Shown here piece by piece: positions 54,529 through 62,501 of a stretch of 64,000 nt of DNA. Both the position numbers and the translations under genes were made by a program. Every line of letters begins with the position of its first letter. Within the stretch, counting starts at the first letter, position 1. Source of the DNA: Rhizocola hellebori (GTDB lineage Bacteria; Actinomycetota; Actinomycetes; Mycobacteriales; Micromonosporaceae). The DNA lies in the NCBI RefSeq assembly GCF_016862955.1, contig NZ_BONY01000012.1:62001-126000 (forward strand), written 5' to 3'. The notes beneath the pieces were generated by a model. The model ran no database searches and was not told the origin of the DNA. It worked only from the letters and a program-made list of their open reading frames with translations.

Positions 54529-55476
54529 GTGACCGCGATCGAGCCTGGAGAAGCACTGCGGCGCATCGCGGCGTACGCAGTGATCAACGACGAGTCGCAG
54601 CAGGTGCTGCTGGTCCGAGCTTCTCCCCTCTCGGCAACGCCGGGGGTGTGGTCGCTTCCGGGCGGTGCGGTGGCGCACGGGGAACATCCGAATGAGACCG
54701 TCGTGCGTGAGACGGCGGCCGAAACCGGTCTGAGCGTTGCCGTCACGGGCCTCAAAGACGTGCTGGCCGACATGCGCGCGCTGCCCAGGCGCGGCCTGAC
54801 CATCCACACCGACCGCGTGATCTACACCGCGCGCGTGCGCGGCGGAGCGTTGCGGGATCGGGTCGATCAGCCCACCGATCTGGTGCGCTGGGTCGACCTG
54901 GCGCAGGCCCGCGGGCTTCCCCTGCGCCCTTTCACCGCGAAAGCGCTGGGGCTTCCCGCGGTCGCCGAGCAGACGCCCGACGAGGTTCCCGAGTTCCCCT
55001 CGTTTCACGCCGCGCCCGGGCCTGACGGGCTGCATCGCGCACAGCGTTTCGCCGCCTATGCGGTGGCGGTCGATGGCCGCCAGCGCATCCTGCTCACCCG
55101 GGTCGCGCCCAACTACCCGGGCGCCGGCCGGTGGCACCTACCCGGCGGGGGCACCGACTACGGCGAGCAGCCGGGGGCGGCGCTGATCCGTGAGCTGGTC
55201 GAAGAGACCGGTCAACGGGGCCGGTTGATCGAGCTGCTCGGCGTGGCGAGCCATCGCGACCCGGCCTCGCTGGGGCCTGAGGGCTATCCGATCGACTGGC
55301 ACGGTGTGCGGGCGTTCTACCGGGTCAAGGTCGATCGCGCCACCCGGCCGAAGGTCCACGACCGGGGCGGCTCCACCTCCGAAGCACGCTGGGTATCCGC
55401 GCAGGAAGTGGCCTCTTTCGGTCCCGATGAGGTGACTGAGGTCACCGCCGAGGCGATCAGGGCTGCCTTCCCGTAG
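54529..55476 (+). CDS. Double-NUDIX protein, first of tandem pair
   Basis: 315 residues with two NUDIX domains (about 10-140 and 170-310). Box 1 begins at Gly46 (GAVAHGE, RETAAETGL): Ala64 replaces one metal-binding Glu, so this domain may be inactive. Box 2 (GGTDYGEQPGAALIRELVEETGQ region) is intact. The second domain resembles the second domain of the next gene (WHLPGGGTD, GPEGYPIDWHGVRAFYRV). Substrate unknown. GTG start, 61 nt after guaA. Confidence 0.85.
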   Translation: MTAIEPGEALRRIAAYAVINDESQQVLLVRASPLSATPGVWSLPGGAVAHGEHPNETVVRETAAETGLSVAVTGLKDVLADMRALPRRGLTIHTDRVIYTARVRGGALRDRVDQPTDLVRWVDLAQARGLPLRPFTAKALGLPAVAEQTPDEVPEFPSFHAAPGPDGLHRAQRFAAYAVAVDGRQRILLTRVAPNYPGAGRWHLPGGGTDYGEQPGAALIRELVEETGQRGRLIELLGVASHRDPASLGPEGYPIDWHGVRAFYRVKVDRATRPKVHDRGGSTSEARWVSAQEVASFGPDEVTEVTAEAIRAAFP

Positions 55477-55513
55477 ACCTGCTCGCCTAGCTAAGGGTCA
55501 GTAGCCTTGCAGT

Positions 55514-56455
55514 GTGGAGAAACGTCGCCGGATAGGCGCCTACGGTGTCGCACGGGATGAGACGGGCCGTGTGCTGCTTGTCCGGTCCTCGCCGAGATCG
55601 AACAATCCCGGTCGATGGGCTCTGCCCGGTGGCGGGCTCGATCACGGCGAAGATCCCAACGTGGGTGTGGTACGCGAGTTCCGCGAGGAGACCGGCCTGG
55701 AGGTGGCCATCGCCGGCCTGCACGACGTCTTCTCCGACGTCGTCGAGTTTCCGTGGCGCGGCGTCCAGCTGCACCACGATCGGATCATCTTCGATGTGAA
55801 GGTGGTCGGCGGCGAGCTGCTCGCCGAGACCGACGGCACCACCGATCTGCCCGCCTGGATAGCCGAGGCCGACCTGCCCAACCTGAATCTGAATCCCTTT
55901 GTGGCCAAGGTTTTGGGAGTGTCCAAAGCGGAGCTTGGCGATGACGAGCGCCCCGTCCGTCCAGATGAGAACAACGAGGTCGGCGTCAAAGGTCAGGCGC
56001 TGTCGGGCGAGAAGCGGGTCACCCGCTTCGGCGCCTACGGGGTGGTGACCGATGCGAGCGGCCGGGTCCTTCTCTCGCTTGTCTCGCAGGGTTACCCCAG
56101 CGGGGGCAACTGGCATCTGCCCGGCGGTGGCACCGATTTCGGCGAACAGCCCGCGGAGGGCCTGCTTCGCGAGATCTACGAGGAGACCGGCCAGTCGGGC
56201 GAGGTCACCGGGTTGATCCGGGTGGGCGCGAGACACAATCCGGCCGCGATGGGGCCTGAGGGGGAGCCGTGGGACTGGTACACGGTCCGGGCGGTGTTCC
56301 AGGTTCACATTCCCGAGCCATCCGAGCCACGGGTGACCGAGGAGGCCGGCGGCTCGACCGCCGACGCGCGATGGTTCACGCGCACCGAGCTGACCTCGAT
56401 CAAGCTGAGTGACCTGGCCCGTCGTGAATTGCTTCACATCGATCTACCAGGCTAG
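55514..56455 (+). CDS. Double-NUDIX protein, second of tandem pair
   Basis: 313 residues, same layout as its neighbour, with both boxes intact (GGLDHGE, REFREETGL; GGTDFGE, REIYEETGQ). Shared segments (RWALPGGGLDHGE, NWHLPGGGTDFGEQPAEGLL, GPEGEPWDWYTVRAVFQV) show the two genes arose by duplication of an already fused double domain. GTG 6 nt after TAGCCT (leaderless). Confidence 0.87.
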   Translation: MEKRRRIGAYGVARDETGRVLLVRSSPRSNNPGRWALPGGGLDHGEDPNVGVVREFREETGLEVAIAGLHDVFSDVVEFPWRGVQLHHDRIIFDVKVVGGELLAETDGTTDLPAWIAEADLPNLNLNPFVAKVLGVSKAELGDDERPVRPDENNEVGVKGQALSGEKRVTRFGAYGVVTDASGRVLLSLVSQGYPSGGNWHLPGGGTDFGEQPAEGLLREIYEETGQSGEVTGLIRVGARHNPAAMGPEGEPWDWYTVRAVFQVHIPEPSEPRVTEEAGGSTADARWFTRTELTSIKLSDLARRELLHIDLPG

Positions 56456-56460
56456 TCGGG

Positions 56461-56626
56461 TAGACTGCGGAAGTCCGGTCAGTTTCCTCTTAATGAGTTA
56501 TGCGCGTAGTGTCCGCTTCTTGGCTATCGCCAAGGCACATGTTCTTGTGCGATGGTGTAGCCGCAAGAGCCGGACGGTCCGCTGAGGCGGCGGAAAGGAA
56601 CCGAACCGGTCATGGAGGGACGACAC
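56461..56626 (+). promoter_or_regulatory. Structured leader of pssA
   Basis: TAGACT (56461-56466) as -10 predicts a start near 56473. An outer stem GTCCGG (56473-56478) / CCGGAC (56570-56575) could enclose a long arm, 56522-56562: 5 bp, bulged T, 5 bp with one G-T, 2x2 internal loop, 5 bp, 6-nt loop. GCGGA/TCCGC (56467-56471/56512-56516) is a further pairing. No known riboswitch class recognised. Confidence 0.45.
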
Positions 56627-57589
56627 GTGCCGAGAGCCATTTGGCGTCGGCGTCGATCGACGGACAGCCCGCGACCCGCGGGACGGCAGTGGACTGGCCG
56701 GCTCCGGGCCGGCGGCACCAAGGCACGGCAGATGTTGCTGGTGCCGGTCGGGCGGCTTCGCCGCCCCAACCACGGTCTCGTCGACACGCCACATGCTCTT
56801 CCCGGTCTAGACGCCGCCGAGATGCGCGAAATCGAGGCGGCCGCGACCTCACCAGAGAGTTCGCCGGCCACGCCGAGCACCATCCCATTGCTTCCCGGCG
56901 AGCGCACCATGTCGCGCCGCATCAAGTTCGGCCTGGTCCAGGCGTGCACCTTGAGCAGCCTGTTCCTCGGCATGACCGCGATCTTCCTGGCCGTGACCGG
57001 CACCGACCCCCGGGTCGGCGCCCTGTGCCTGCTCGCCTGCATCACCTTCGACGGCCTCGACGGCGCCCTCGCCCGTAAGTTCGGCGTGGCCAGCCCGTTT
57101 GGTGTCCAGATGGACTCGCTGGGCGATATGACCTCGTTCGGCATCGCCGCTCCGGTGGTGATCTATTCGGCGCTCGCAGGCAAGGTGGCGACGCCGATGC
57201 TGGTCCTCGCCTGCGCCATGGTGGCGGCCTGTGCCGCCATCCGGTTGGCCCGCTTCAACGTGTCGCCGAAAGACGGCCGGTTCTTCTGCGGAGTGCCAAC
57301 CACTATGGCCGCGACGGTGCTCGCCATCAGCGTGCTCATCGGCCTCTCCCTGCCGCCGGCCATGATGGTCGTCGGCGTGGTGCTGCTGGCCGTGGCGATG
57401 GTCTCCAGCTTCCCCTACGCGAAGCTGGCCAAGGTCTTCCGCCTGCCGCTGTGGCTGCTGATCGTCCCGGTGCTGGGCATCGTGGCAAACCTCCAGCTCA
57501 CCTTCGGCCTCATCGTGCTGGCCTACCTGGTAAGCGGCCCAATCCTCTGGGCCCGCGCCAAAGCAACCCGCCAGCAGATCGCTGTGTAG
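56627..57589 (+). CDS. pssA: CDP-diacylglycerol-serine O-phosphatidyltransferase
   Basis: 320 residues. Makes phosphatidylserine. CDP-alcohol motif intact: D-G-L-D-G-A-L-A-R, then G...D...D in FGVQMDSLGD; seven or so membrane segments from about residue 100. The first 95 residues are a basic, disordered-looking extension. GTG 56627 has GGAGGG 7 nt upstream; ATG 56612 and a start near 56906 are alternatives. The decarboxylase that uses its product is encoded convergently next door. Confidence 0.9.
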   Translation: MPRAIWRRRRSTDSPRPAGRQWTGRLRAGGTKARQMLLVPVGRLRRPNHGLVDTPHALPGLDAAEMREIEAAATSPESSPATPSTIPLLPGERTMSRRIKFGLVQACTLSSLFLGMTAIFLAVTGTDPRVGALCLLACITFDGLDGALARKFGVASPFGVQMDSLGDMTSFGIAAPVVIYSALAGKVATPMLVLACAMVAACAAIRLARFNVSPKDGRFFCGVPTTMAATVLAISVLIGLSLPPAMMVVGVVLLAVAMVSSFPYAKLAKVFRLPLWLLIVPVLGIVANLQLTFGLIVLAYLVSGPILWARAKATRQQIAV

Positions 57590-57615: not shown

Positions 57616-57655
57616 CGTGGGCAGGCCGCCTTAGGCGACCTGCCCACGGCTTTTT
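57616..57655 (+). terminator. Intrinsic terminator of pssA
   Basis: CGTGGGCAGG pairs with CCTGCCCACG (arms 57616-57630 and 57634-57648, with an inner GCC/GGC after a 2x2 mismatch), loop TTA, then TTTTT at 57651-57655. Confidence 0.9.
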
Positions 57656-58895
57656 AGATCCAGCGGGCGATTACGGTGGAGCCGCCTACTACCTTGTCGC
57701 CGGGGGCGACGGTGGCTTCGGCGCGGTCGGCGGGGAGGTAGACGTCGGTTCGGGAGCCGAAGCGGATGAGCCCGAAGCGTTCGCCCTTGGCCAGCAGCGC
57801 GCCGATCGGGGCGCGTTGCACGATGCGCCGGGCGATCAGCCCGGTCCGCTGGGCGACCACGACGCGGTGATTCTCCGGGGTGTCCAGGACGGTGTAAGCG
57901 GCGACGTTGTGCTCGGCCGCGGCGGTCATCGCGTTGGCGTAACCGCCGTCCTCCACGAAGTAGTCGACGACCTTGCCGGCCACCGGCGACCGGTTGACGT
58001 GCACGTCCAGTACCGAAAGGAAGACCGCGATACGCAGGAACTCCTCGTCGGCGAAGCGCTCGTCGTGGAGCCTTTCGACGCTTAGCACCTTGCCGTCGCT
58101 GGCGGCGACCACGGCGCTCGGATCGGCCGGGATCTCCCGCTCGGGATCGCGGAAGAACGCGGCCACGGGCGCGGCGAGCAGGGCCGGTACCAGCCAAGCC
58201 CTAGATCTTGGGCGCACCAACTTGAGTAGAGCGGCTGCACCCAGGGTGATCCCGGCCGCGGCCACGCCGTTGGAGTCGATGTTCATGGTGCCGAACAGCG
58301 GCACGCTGGAGGGCCGGAACGCGGGGGAGAGCTTGGCCGCGGTGGCCGGGTCGGCCTCGGAGAAGCGCAGGCGGTGAATCCGCAGCGGGGGAGTATTGCG
58401 AAGCACCAGGTCCGAGCCGACGCCCTGGCGGGCGGCTATCCGGTCGAGTTCGTCGGTGGCGCCGCGGGCCAGACCGGGCAGCGCCACGGCCGCGATGACC
58501 AGCAGACCGCCCTCGGCGACCACCTTGCTCAACTGGTCGACCGTGCCCCGGGCCTCCTCGCCCGAGCCCACTACCGGCTCGGCGACGATGACTATCTCGG
58601 CCGGCTCAGCCTCGGACAGATCGGTGACGACCTTGACCCGCTCCCGGATGAAGCTGCCCATGGTGGCGACCTGAGTCGCGACCGCGTTATCGGCGGCGAC
58701 CACGGTCAGCCGGTCGCCGGGCATCATGGCGTCGAGCGCCTCGGTGAGCACCAGCGAGTCGGCTCCCGCGCCGACCAGCACAGCCGACTTAGGACCGGCG
58801 TGCCGGGCCAGCTCCGCAGTAAGCGCGCGGGCGGCCCGGTCACCGATGCTGATCTGGCCTAGCGGACCAAGGGGCGTGTTGGAAAGCTGACTCAT
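57654..58895 (-). CDS. psd: Methyltransferase-like domain fused to phosphatidylserine decarboxylase
   Basis: 413 residues. The C-terminal part (about 200-413) is a PSD-A type decarboxylase: FFRDPEREIP, DGKVLSVER, VFLSVLDVHVNRSPVAGKV, and the self-cleavage site FGLIRFGSRTDVYLP with the pyruvoyl Ser381, giving a 33-residue alpha chain. The N-terminal ~190 residues form a Rossmann-like domain (AVLVGAGADSLVLTEALDAM; GDRLTVVAADNAVATQVATM; EIVIVAEPV) resembling a SAM methyltransferase. Ordinary PSD-A is about 210-230 residues, so this is a fusion. The ATG is 6 nt after TATGCT (leaderless). Confidence 0.88.
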   Translation of the reverse strand: MSQLSNTPLGPLGQISIGDRAARALTAELARHAGPKSAVLVGAGADSLVLTEALDAMMPGDRLTVVAADNAVATQVATMGSFIRERVKVVTDLSEAEPAEIVIVAEPVVGSGEEARGTVDQLSKVVAEGGLLVIAAVALPGLARGATDELDRIAARQGVGSDLVLRNTPPLRIHRLRFSEADPATAAKLSPAFRPSSVPLFGTMNIDSNGVAAAGITLGAAALLKLVRPRSRAWLVPALLAAPVAAFFRDPEREIPADPSAVVAASDGKVLSVERLHDERFADEEFLRIAVFLSVLDVHVNRSPVAGKVVDYFVEDGGYANAMTAAAEHNVAAYTVLDTPENHRVVVAQRTGLIARRIVQRAPIGALLAKGERFGLIRFGSRTDVYLPADRAEATVAPGDKVVGGSTVIARWI

Positions 58896-58912: not shown

Positions 58913-59164
58913 CTAGGGTCTGGGGTTCTCGTCGACCTCAACCGGGTCTTGGACGGGTGGGATTTCCGTGGGGTTCTGCTTGCGGTGTGGGAACAGGGCC
59001 GTGATCGCGATGACCCCGCCGAGCACCACCACGCCCGCGGCCACCAGAAGGCCCATGTCGGGCAGCTTCACATCGAAGGCACGGTTGGCGAGAAACGCCA
59101 CGGCGATGAGGACGAACAGCATTCCAAAGGCGAGGGACAGGGCGTCGGTGCGATGCGCTTTCAT
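58913..59164 (-). CDS. Small two-helix membrane protein
   Basis: 83 residues: hydrophobic segments at about 9-27 and 38-58, acidic/Pro-rich tail. No family recognised. A GGAGG motif precedes the ATG, which overlaps the stop of the PspC gene (ATGA), so it belongs to that envelope-stress operon. Confidence 0.65.
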   Translation of the reverse strand: MKAHRTDALSLAFGMLFVLIAVAFLANRAFDVKLPDMGLLVAAGVVVLGGVIAITALFPHRKQNPTEIPPVQDPVEVDENPRP

Positions 59165-60495
59165 CTCGTTACCTCCGCGTGGCCGAACTTCACGTCCAGG
59201 TTCAGCCGCAGGGTGCCCCCACCTGGGCCGTCAGATCCTTCGTTGTTTTCGGTGCGGTCCACTCCGGCGCCGCTGATGTTGTAGCCGAAGACGGTGGCGT
59301 CGCCGAGGCTGACGTCGGTGTCCACCACTACATCCACCTTCTCCGGCAGGATGACCCGCAGCTCGCCGAAGCTGATGTCCGCTTGGACAACGACGTCGTG
59401 ACCGGCGAAGTCGACGTTGCTCAGGTCCAGCGTCGCCTCGCCGAAGCGGTGCTCGTAGGAGTCGGAGATCTCTTGCGTGGTCAACGGCACCCAGCTGACC
59501 GTGCCCGGCCGTCCGAAGCGCTCCCGGTCGTGCTCGTCGGCCGCGATCGGCAACATGAGACTCAGGACGATGCCGAGGATGATGAAGCCTCTGGCCCGGC
59601 CGAACCAGGCGCCGACGATGAGACCCAAGCCGGTCACGATGAGGGCGGCTGTCACGTAGTTCTCGAAGGGCATCGAGGCGTCGTACATGAGGTCGGCGAT
59701 CGCCATCAGGCCGATGACCACCAGACCAAGGCCAAAGATCAACCGGCCCAGCCGGGAGGGCTCACGCTTTGGTCTGGCCACCCTTATCTGGGGTACCTGG
59801 ATAGGCGCGCTCGCATACGGCCCGTGCGGAGCGAACGGGGGCTGATATCCGCCCTGCACCACGGGAATGCTGGCCGTGGCCGCCTGGGATGCGCCCGGAT
59901 CCGATGGTGGCCTAAGCGGATCAGGCGGAATCGAGACCGGTTGGCGGGTTCTGGGGTTGGTGGCGAGGGCGGCGATCACCAGCCCGACGGCGGCGATCAG
60001 CGCTACCACGAAGCTGTCGGTGAGCGCGCCCAACAGGATGACGGCGACGACCGCCAAGCCGAGGGTGAGCCCGGTCGAGGTGCTGGAGTAGCCGCGTCCG
60101 AAGAGGGCTTCGATCGGCGACGCGGTGTCGCCCTCAGCGGGGATGAGCAGCCAGCCCGCGACGTAGAGCACGATGCCGACGCCGAAGATCGAGAGCACGC
60201 CGATGAGGACCCGCCATATCAGCGGATCGGTGTTGGTGGCGCGGCCGATGGCGGCGCAGACTCCGGCGACGACCCGGCCGTGGCGCGGCCGGACGAGGCC
60301 GAACCGGGCGGCCCAGGGCTGGTCGGCTCCGGGCGCGGTGGCCGGCGGCGGGTCGACCGGAGGCGGCGGACCGGCCGGCGGCGGGTCGACCGGAGGCGGA
60401 CCGGTCGGCGGCGGAGATGCCGGCGGCGGATAGGCCGGCGGATTGTTCGGCGGCGGTGCCGCGGCTGCCGGTGGGGGAGGTGTTTCCTCGGTCAT
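59161..60495 (-). CDS. PspC-domain membrane protein with C-terminal toast-rack domain
   Basis: 444 residues. N-terminal Pro-rich repeats (PPP-x2-3 units to about residue 50), PspC domain (RHGRVVAGVCAAIGRATNTDPLIWRVLIGVLSIFG), further membrane helices, and a C-terminal beta domain (ATLDLSNVDFAGHDVVVQADISFGELRVILPEKV; VDTDVSLGDATVFG) like LiaF/toast-rack adhesin domains. Likely a membrane-stress sensor or inhibitor for the divergent kinase. Confidence 0.87.
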   Translation of the reverse strand: MTEETPPPPAAAAPPPNNPPAYPPPASPPPTGPPPVDPPPAGPPPPVDPPPATAPGADQPWAARFGLVRPRHGRVVAGVCAAIGRATNTDPLIWRVLIGVLSIFGVGIVLYVAGWLLIPAEGDTASPIEALFGRGYSSTSTGLTLGLAVVAVILLGALTDSFVVALIAAVGLVIAALATNPRTRQPVSIPPDPLRPPSDPGASQAATASIPVVQGGYQPPFAPHGPYASAPIQVPQIRVARPKREPSRLGRLIFGLGLVVIGLMAIADLMYDASMPFENYVTAALIVTGLGLIVGAWFGRARGFIILGIVLSLMLPIAADEHDRERFGRPGTVSWVPLTTQEISDSYEHRFGEATLDLSNVDFAGHDVVVQADISFGELRVILPEKVDVVVDTDVSLGDATVFGYNISGAGVDRTENNEGSDGPGGGTLRLNLDVKFGHAEVTR

Positions 60496-60527
60496 GCCTT
60501 GATAGTGCTGCCGACATGAGCTGAGAT

Positions 60528-60614
60528 ACCTCAGGCGCGGACCCTGACCGGACCCTGAGAAAGCTAGTGGTGCCGGGTCCGGGGGTTACCTGTGGGCGCT
60601 CAAGCGCCTGAGGT
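60528..60614. promoter_or_regulatory. Inverted 11-bp sites in the PspC divergent promoter region
   Basis: ACCTCAGGCGC (60528-60538) and GCGCCTGAGGT (60604-60614) are exact inverted copies 76 bp apart, one near each gene start. The core CCTcAGG is itself a small palindrome. Possible sites for the LuxR-type regulator. Confidence 0.4.
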
Positions 60615-60628
60615 GGAACGATCTACCT

Positions 60629-61864
60629 GTGCCTGAAACCGTGCCCCGCGCCCGCCTCAGCCGCTCCCGGGAGGATCGCCTGGTAGCCGGGGTGGCTGCG
60701 GGCATCGCCGCCAACGTGAGGCTGTCGCCCACGGTGGTTCGGGCCTTATTCGTCTTGCTTGTCCCGGTCAACGGGCTGGGTGTCCTTCTCTATGCCGCCT
60801 TCTGGGCGGTCATGCCGTCGGCGGAAGGTCAGCAGACCAAGCGCCGCGAGTGGTACCGGCTGCTGCCCTTCGTGCTGGCCGCGCTGGGCTTGATGGCGGC
60901 CGCGGGCTTATTCAATCGGGAAGATCCGTTCTCGATGACGGTCGGCTGGCTGGTGGCGCTCATCGCGATCGGCGCCGGGATCATCTGGCATCAGACCCAA
61001 AGCTCCACCACCGCACCGTGGTTCAGCGTGCTGACCGAGACCAAGAACCGCCGCACCTATCTGATCCGCTTCCTCGCCGGCGGGGTGCTGGTGGTGGCCG
61101 GGGTAATAGGCCTGTTGGTGGTCTACTCGCCGCTGAGCGGGGTCACCTGGTCGGAGTTGTGGCAGGCGCTGGCCTTCGCCCTGGTGGCCCTCGCCGGCGT
61201 CGGGCTGGTCGCCGCGCCGCTGTTGTGGCGCACCCTGGCCGCCCTGCGTTCCGAGCGCGAGGGACGCATCCGCGAACAGGAACGCGCTGAGCTGGCCGCG
61301 ATGGTGCACGACCAGGTGCTGCACACGCTCGCGCTGATCCAGCGCAACGCCGCGGATCCGGCCACCGTGGTCAGAATTGCCCGTGGCCAGGAAAGATCGC
61401 TGCGTAACTGGCTCTATCAACCGACGGGCTCACCGAACGAGCATTTCGCTGCCGCTCTGGAGCAGGCGGCGGTCGAGGTCGAGGACACCTACGGGATCGC
61501 GGTGGAGGTGGTCGTCGTGGGCGATCGCGCCTTCGACGACAAGGTGGCCGCTCTGGTGGCCGCGGCACGCGAAGCAATGGTCAATGCGGCACGCCACGCG
61601 GGAGTCAAGACAATCTCGCTCTACGCTGAGGCCGAGCCGGGCCAGCTGAGCGTTTTCGTGCGAGACCGCGGCGCCGGTTTCGATCTGGACTCCCTTGACG
61701 GTGAACATCGCGAAAACCTGAGGCACGGCGTGAAGGGCTCGATCGTCGGCAGAATGACAAGGCACGGTGGCGAGGCCGAGATCCGCACGGCGCCGGGCGA
61801 AGGCACCGAGGTCCGGCTGATCCTGCCGGTGCCCCTGGTTAAAGAGGAGTCGGGTCGTGACTGA
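60629..61864 (+). CDS. PspC-domain sensor histidine kinase
   Basis: 411 residues. PspC domain (RLSRSREDRLVAGVAAGIAA onward, residues 8-65), about four more membrane helices, HisKA_3 dimerisation helix with phospho-His226 in MVHDQVLHTL, and HATPase (AAREAMVNAARHAG; VRDRGAGFDL; EGTEVRLILPV). Resembles MacS/LiaS-like kinases. The stop overlaps the regulator start by 8 nt. Confidence 0.92.
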   Translation: MPETVPRARLSRSREDRLVAGVAAGIAANVRLSPTVVRALFVLLVPVNGLGVLLYAAFWAVMPSAEGQQTKRREWYRLLPFVLAALGLMAAAGLFNREDPFSMTVGWLVALIAIGAGIIWHQTQSSTTAPWFSVLTETKNRRTYLIRFLAGGVLVVAGVIGLLVVYSPLSGVTWSELWQALAFALVALAGVGLVAAPLLWRTLAALRSEREGRIREQERAELAAMVHDQVLHTLALIQRNAADPATVVRIARGQERSLRNWLYQPTGSPNEHFAAALEQAAVEVEDTYGIAVEVVVVGDRAFDDKVAALVAAAREAMVNAARHAGVKTISLYAEAEPGQLSVFVRDRGAGFDLDSLDGEHRENLRHGVKGSIVGRMTRHGGEAEIRTAPGEGTEVRLILPVPLVKEESGRD

Positions 61865-62501
61865 GCGATTGAAGGTCTTTCTGGTAGACGACCACGGCAT
61901 GTTCCGGGCCGGGGTGCGGGCGGAGCTTGGCGATCACGTGGATGTGGTGGGTGAGGCGGCCACGGTCGCCCAGGCGATCTCGATGATCGCGGCAACCCAG
62001 CCCGACGTCGTGCTGCTGGACGTGCACATGCCCGATGGCGGGGGCCGGGCCGTGCTGGAGGGGATTCGTCGATCCCATCCCCAGGTGAAGTTCCTGGCAT
62101 TGTCGGTCTCCGATGCCGCCGAGGACGTGATCGGCCTGATCCGGGCCGGTGCTCGGGGCTATGTCACCAAGACGATTTCGCCCGAGGATCTGGTCGACGC
62201 CATCCGCCGGGTCGCCGATGGGGATGCGGTCTTCTCGCCGCGCCTGGCCGGGTTCGTGCTCGACGCCTTTGCCGCCCGCCCGGAGAGCGCGCTGGCCGAT
62301 CCCGAGCTTGACCAGCTCACCAATCGAGAGCGTGAGGTGCTTCGATTGCTGGCCAGAGGGTACGCGTACAAGGAGATCGCGCGGGAACTCTTCATTTCCA
62401 TCAAGACCGTTGAGACACATGTGTCTAATGTGCTTCGCAAGCTTCAGATGTCCAATCGCTACGAATTGTCACGGTGGGCGGCCGACCGCAGGCTGCTCTG
62501 A
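61857..62501 (+). CDS. LuxR-family response regulator
   Basis: 214 residues. Receiver with acidic pair DD (11-12), phospho-Asp55 in LLDVHMPD, and Lys in YVTKTISPEDL; C-terminal HTH LTNREREVLRLLARGYAYKE, ELFISIKTVETHVSNVLRKL. Partner of the PspC kinase; probably acts on the divergent PspC operon. Confidence 0.94.
   Translation: MTERLKVFLVDDHGMFRAGVRAELGDHVDVVGEAATVAQAISMIAATQPDVVLLDVHMPDGGGRAVLEGIRRSHPQVKFLALSVSDAAEDVIGLIRAGARGYVTKTISPEDLVDAIRRVADGDAVFSPRLAGFVLDAFAARPESALADPELDQLTNREREVLRLLARGYAYKEIARELFISIKTVETHVSNVLRKLQMSNRYELSRWAADRRLL

Follow-up and report, generated by a model that had tools for sequence, protein, structure and literature searches.

A conserved N-terminal domain with the marks of a decayed PmtA/OlsG-type methyltransferase fused to phosphatidylserine decarboxylase in Micromonosporaceae

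Introduction

Within the window, a stretch of 64,000 nucleotides of Rhizocola hellebori DNA, one open reading frame encodes a phosphatidylserine decarboxylase (PSD) preceded by about 200 further residues. A first-pass annotation had seen in these residues a methyltransferase-like domain, and proposed that one protein might both make phosphatidylethanolamine (PE) and N-methylate it, or alternatively that the domain is a degenerate regulator. Here we ask what this N-terminal domain is, where it came from and whether it methylates PE. The architecture is real, clade-wide and apparently undescribed, and a variant of a known enzyme. As for its novelty, which the annotation had suspected, the architecture is absent from the family databases, and no published description of this fusion was found in the openly licensed literature; it is not special to Rhizocola hellebori, however, but shared by a whole clade.

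Results

A PSD-A decarboxylase with an additional domain

The gene and the features of its decarboxylase half are as follows.

57654..58895, minus strand: psd, PSD proenzyme with an N-terminal putative pseudo-methyltransferase domain, 413 amino acids plus stop, an intact single open reading frame.
57657..58283, minus strand: PSD-A catalytic domain, residues 205-413, from Pfam and NCBIfam matches and catalytic residues.
57753..57758, minus strand: Gly380-Ser381, the self-cleavage and pyruvoyl-forming site in the sequence RFGSRTD, from a comparison of 77 proteins.
58149..58274, minus strand: a pair of hydrophobic helices that opens the PSD domain, residues 208-249, from the sequence and from AlphaFold2 helices at 208-227 and 232-249 (low confidence).

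Pfam PS_Dcarbxylase (PF02666) matched residues 244-410 at E 2e-35, with 122.7 bits (cut-off 22). NCBIfam PSD models covered residues 211-411, and the best of them reached 191.3 bits, under its equivalog cut-off of 225; since the NCBIfam cut-offs are tuned to the short PSDs of particular lineages, membership of PSD-A rests on the Pfam match and the catalytic residues. Asp267, His299 and Asn301 are invariant in all 77 distinct fused homologues, and Gly380 and Ser381 are present in each of the 75 that extend to the site. Together with the Pfam match and the RFGSRTD sequence, these invariant residues bear out the annotation of a complete PSD-A with an FGS self-cleavage site. A PF02666 search of the Rhizocola hellebori genome found the fused psd as its sole PSD. 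We infer that the psd product is an active PSD-A decarboxylase making PE. PSD self-cleavage at Gly-Ser forms the pyruvoyl group, and by this established chemistry cleavage at Gly380-Ser381 would leave the N-terminal domain on the large beta chain. The hydrophobic helices of residues 208-249 probably serve as membrane attachment.

The fused protein has in common with ordinary PSD-A (PF02666; PRK05305 models) the catalytic Asp/His/Ser, the GS self-cleavage site, hydrophobic N-terminal helices and a nearby pssA; it differs in the methyltransferase-fold domain of ~200 residues in front and in scoring under the NCBIfam equivalog cut-offs. It is practically inconceivable that the fusion stems from misassembly, misannotation or the reading of two genes as one: nothing was found in favour of this, and many independent genomes, Catellatospora and Hamadaea assemblies among them, show the same single open frame in 77 distinct sequences, which already refutes this explanation.

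The N-terminal domain has a predicted class I methyltransferase fold

58296..58895, minus strand: N-terminal domain, residues 1-200; predicted class I methyltransferase fold, related to PmtA/OlsG but lacking the catalytic residues.

A Pfam search with residues 1-200 of the Rhizocola hellebori protein alone gave no match, and among 36 family members ten matched Methyltransf_12 weakly (best E 6.9e-5). Against the PDB, phmmer with residues 1-200 found no significant match and the profile of the domain found weak methyltransferase matches only (E 0.003). Near-matches to ornithine-cyclodeaminase-like and uracil phosphoribosyltransferase NCBIfam models (E 0.005-0.08) were set aside as generic Rossmann noise. 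The AlphaFold2 model of the domain, built with ten homologues, shows the seven-strand order of class I methyltransferases including the beta6-beta7 hairpin (pLDDT 74, pTM 0.74), and Foldseek with this model against the PDB retrieved COMT, other methyltransferases and spermidine synthases at E ~2e-6. By these two predictions the domain has a class I methyltransferase fold, as the first-pass annotation had supposed. In a full-length AlphaFold2 model from ten close homologues the PSD half was poor (pLDDT 52), so that the domain interface is not readable from it.

Comparing Catellatospora-type and Hamadaea pairs, we obtained dN/dS values of 0.09-0.28 for residues 16-200, versus 0.06-0.17 for the PSD domain. 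The N-terminal domain is thus under purifying selection, and therefore a real part of the protein.

Probable kinship with the PmtA/OlsG methyltransferases

58362..58412, minus strand: beta6-beta7 hairpin with the PmtA-type RN-x-PP signature, residues 162-178, DLVLRNTPPLRIHRLRF, conserved in the fused proteins.

Profile-profile comparison by hhalign placed the domain closest to PmtA-like proteins (94.9%, E 4.7e-8), in an alignment of residues 36-182 that spans the RN-x-PP motif; the scores for UbiE and KsgA were 13% and 0.3%. The signature occurs in 26 of 27 PmtA-like proteins, AtPmtA itself (PDB 9KO3) being another bearer, versus none of 70 control methyltransferases, and its strict form is found in 29 of 36 fused domains. 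Residue by residue, Pro169 and Pro170 are kept in 76 of the 77 fused proteins, Arg172 likewise in 76 and Asn167 in 70. Searching 299 genomes of the order with the domain profile, we found as the clearly best non-fused match (E 5e-11) a stand-alone methyltransferase whose GAGTG loop is intact and whose tail reads NLPPARV; its better matches to named families include OlsG and PmtA. A phylum-wide profile search for stand-alone versions of the domain gave weak partial matches only and no second family. The NCBIfam models for PmtA (NF045881) and OlsG (NF041658) did not match residues 1-200, and the kinship is seen through profile-profile comparison only. The domain likely descends, remotely, from the aminolipid N-methyltransferases of the PmtA/OlsG group; since its best profile match is to this group and runs through the C-terminal RN-x-PP, the ancestry guessed in the first-pass annotation looks right.

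Intact relatives of the domain occur beside psd in other genomes. Four genomes from three further families (G044, G058, G591 and G733) have an intact PmtA/OlsG-like gene immediately before an ordinary psd and on its strand, overlapping the psd start in G044, and in a genome of another family of the class (G856, locus L221) a PmtA-like gene is divergent from psd within ~1 kb. OlsG (NF041658) and the genes of the four genomes have in common with the fused domain the place immediately before psd, the signature motif and the aminolipid methyltransferase group; they differ from it in that each stands as a gene of its own, its ELGxGTG loop, ribose Glu and Tyr intact. The PmtA/OlsG-like gene upstream of psd corresponds to the fusion in unfused form. 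At the loci L132, L050, L208 and L220, where an intact OlsG/PmtA-like gene directly precedes psd, a codirectional pssA follows in the first three; these organisms may be producers of N-methylated PE.

It is unlikely that the domain was recruited independently from another class I family, for example a COMT-like one, and that its likeness to PmtA is convergent. The COMT-type profile aligns too (82.7%, E 9.5e-6), and COMT, with spermidine synthase and other methyltransferases, fills the Foldseek top 50 against the PDB, from which PmtA is absent. The COMT alignment, however, stops at residue 144, before the beta6-beta7 hairpin, whereas that to PmtA spans the signature lacking from all the controls, and it is PmtA/OlsG-like genes that sit upstream of psd elsewhere.

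Loss of the catalytic residues

58755..58784, minus strand: place of SAM motif I, residues 38-47, degenerate; AVLVGAGADS here, VGAxxxS in the fused family, E/DxGxGxG in PmtA.

To locate catalytic positions, we mapped residues from the AtPmtA structure (PMC12139422) and alignments, in AtPmtA numbering. Glu58, Gly62, Thr63, Gly64, Glu84 and Tyr161 are invariant in PmtA-like proteins and replaced across the fused family. None of the 77 distinct fused proteins has an acidic residue at the equivalent of Glu58 (SAM motif) or of Glu84 (ribose), the latter Glu in 27 of 27 PmtA-like proteins, and none has Tyr at the equivalent of the substrate residue Tyr161, which is also Tyr in all 27; the second glycine of the E/DxGxGxG motif is present in 8 and the third in 17 of the 77. 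In AtPmtA, E84A almost completely abolishes activity and Y161A severely reduces it (PMC12139422). We also looked among the 77 fused proteins for one whose SAM residues are intact, and found none. What the fused family retains is the first motif-I glycine, the RN-x-PP hairpin and the linker SSVPL. The Rossmann/SAM-type glycine motif of the first-pass annotation does not hold: the GAGAD in question (residues 42-46) is no feature of the fused family but a local coincidence.

Set against AtPmtA-type PmtA of Agrobacterium and Sinorhizobium (NF045881; PDB 9KO3, 9KO5), the domain has in common the predicted seven-strand class I fold, the first motif-I glycine, a conserved Pro after beta4 and the RN-x-PP hairpin at beta6-beta7. 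Unlike PmtA, it is fused to PSD and the equivalents of Glu58, Gly62, Thr63, Glu84, Asp106 and Tyr161 are gone; PmtA's N-terminal amphipathic helix and its GA-[VI]-x-P-[TS] (AIVPT) loop are not recognisable in it.

It is very unlikely, on these residues, that the protein is bifunctional, its N-terminal domain binding SAM in an unusual way and N-methylating the PE that the PSD half produces. The fold, the PmtA/OlsG kinship, the intact relatives adjoining psd and the purifying selection would all fit such an enzyme. Against it stand the SAM-motif acid, ribose Glu and substrate Tyr, missing from every fused protein, and the second glycine, missing from most. Micromonospora strains, moreover, are typed by PE as a diagnostic lipid of this genus of Micromonosporaceae, and methylated PE is not listed for them (PMC5765111, PMC6423291). 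Some fused genomes also carry separate PmtA/OlsG-like genes, which again speaks against a methylating fusion; a family search of the Rhizocola hellebori genome found no separate PmtA- or OlsG-like gene. The link to PE N-methylation drawn in the first-pass annotation thus stands for ancestry, through the profile match and the intact gene upstream of psd in four genomes, and is not supported for activity; a single protein making methylated PE is unlikely in view of the family-wide loss of these residues, and the degenerate regulator is to be preferred. The domain is best regarded, from its residues, as a conserved pseudo-methyltransferase in a protein that probably does not methylate PE. As the domain is kept across the family although its catalytic residues are gone, it is probably a non-catalytic helper rather than a maker of methylated lipid.

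One clade carries the fusion and a rearranged locus

The domain-architecture search that the first-pass annotation had suggested revealed the fusion in 36 of the 37 Micromonosporaceae genera sampled, the 37th (genome G019) giving no PSD match, and likewise in three further families (f5, f11 and f13) of its order; among the close relatives that carry it are Catellatospora and Hamadaea. Of the two things named there as speaking against a methylating enzyme, a domain that lacks SAM binding and one that the PSDs of relatives commonly carry, the latter was indeed found. All of the fused proteins fall into a single clade of the PSD tree (support 100/98). Genome G046, whose PSD is without the domain, nests inside this clade, and we read it as a secondary loss. 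The fused clade joins the psd genes of the operons with PmtA/OlsG-like genes weakly (85/63) and on long branches, so that the operon may have arisen in parallel instead of being ancestral to the fusion.

That the domain is a passive relic, folding merely to spare PSD and without function of its own, is quite unlikely. In favour of a relic are the missing catalytic residues, the one clade member that does without the domain, and a dN/dS above that of the PSD domain; yet the domain persists in nearly every sampled genus of the family, its dN/dS is well below 1, and the hairpin and linker (residues 162-200) are strictly kept.

The clade is also marked by a rearrangement of the locus.

56612..57589, plus strand: pssA (CDP-diacylglycerol-serine O-phosphatidyltransferase) open reading frame, tail-to-tail with psd; TIGR00473 E 3.5e-27.

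The TIGR00473 match of pssA scored 95.4 bits, under the cut-off of 107, and the true start of the gene probably lies inside this frame. Ahead of the CDP-alcohol transferase domain the frame encodes an N-terminal stretch of ~60-100 residues (MLLVPVGRLRR...), conserved in Catellatospora L031. Wherever both genes were found in a fused-psd genome (~41 genomes), psd and pssA are convergent, as they also are in G046, the unfused genome nested among them; in unfused genomes outside the fused clade they are codirectional. Mycobacteria have a psd-pssA-cpa operon with psd and pssA codirectional (PMC6017811), which resembles the fused locus in keeping PE pathway genes close together but differs in that its psd is unfused and codirectional with pssA. 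Compared with the locus of an ordinary PSD-A, too, the fused locus has pssA convergent and no psd-pssA operon.

A proposed origin and role of the domain

Comparison of the sequences establishes the fusion, its single clade, the loss of catalytic residues, the retention of PSD residues and the purifying selection. The likely explanation, in our view, is an ancient fusion of a PmtA/OlsG gene with psd, in which the methyltransferase half decayed to a pseudoenzyme and became a non-catalytic module on an active PSD-A. A PmtA/OlsG-type gene, probably already beside psd, would have been joined to it in an ancestor that Micromonosporaceae share with a few related families; SAM binding and catalysis would then have been lost, the fold and the C-terminal beta6-beta7 RN-x-PP hairpin being kept. 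After self-cleavage the domain, on the beta chain, would lie at the cytoplasmic face of the membrane, where it may hold or gate the decarboxylase through substrate presentation, membrane contact or allosteric control. A more specific proposal, which we regard as rather doubtful, is that the decayed domain is a lipid sensor, which adjusts PSD activity by binding the headgroup of PE or PS in its former substrate groove. If so, a product-consuming enzyme would have become, family-wide, a built-in feedback device for PE synthesis.

The decayed fusion would be a clear case of enzyme death following the fusion of pathway neighbours, a consumer of PE welded to its maker, with the pseudoenzyme kept throughout a large family of antibiotic-producing actinomycetes. 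It corrects the expectation from fold-based annotation that the fused proteins make methylated PE. The fused PSD would also offer a tractable entry to how bacteria set the level of PE, a poorly understood control point, and to the roles of pseudo-methyltransferases.

Other genes near psd

Beside psd, at 59161-62501, lie genes for a PspC/LiaF-like protein, a PspC-histidine kinase and a LuxR-type response regulator, in an order kept in Catellatospora L031; this cluster is a probable envelope-stress system next to PE synthesis genes. At 54529-56455, two adjacent open reading frames encode two NUDIX domains each and stand side by side in Catellatospora L031 as well.
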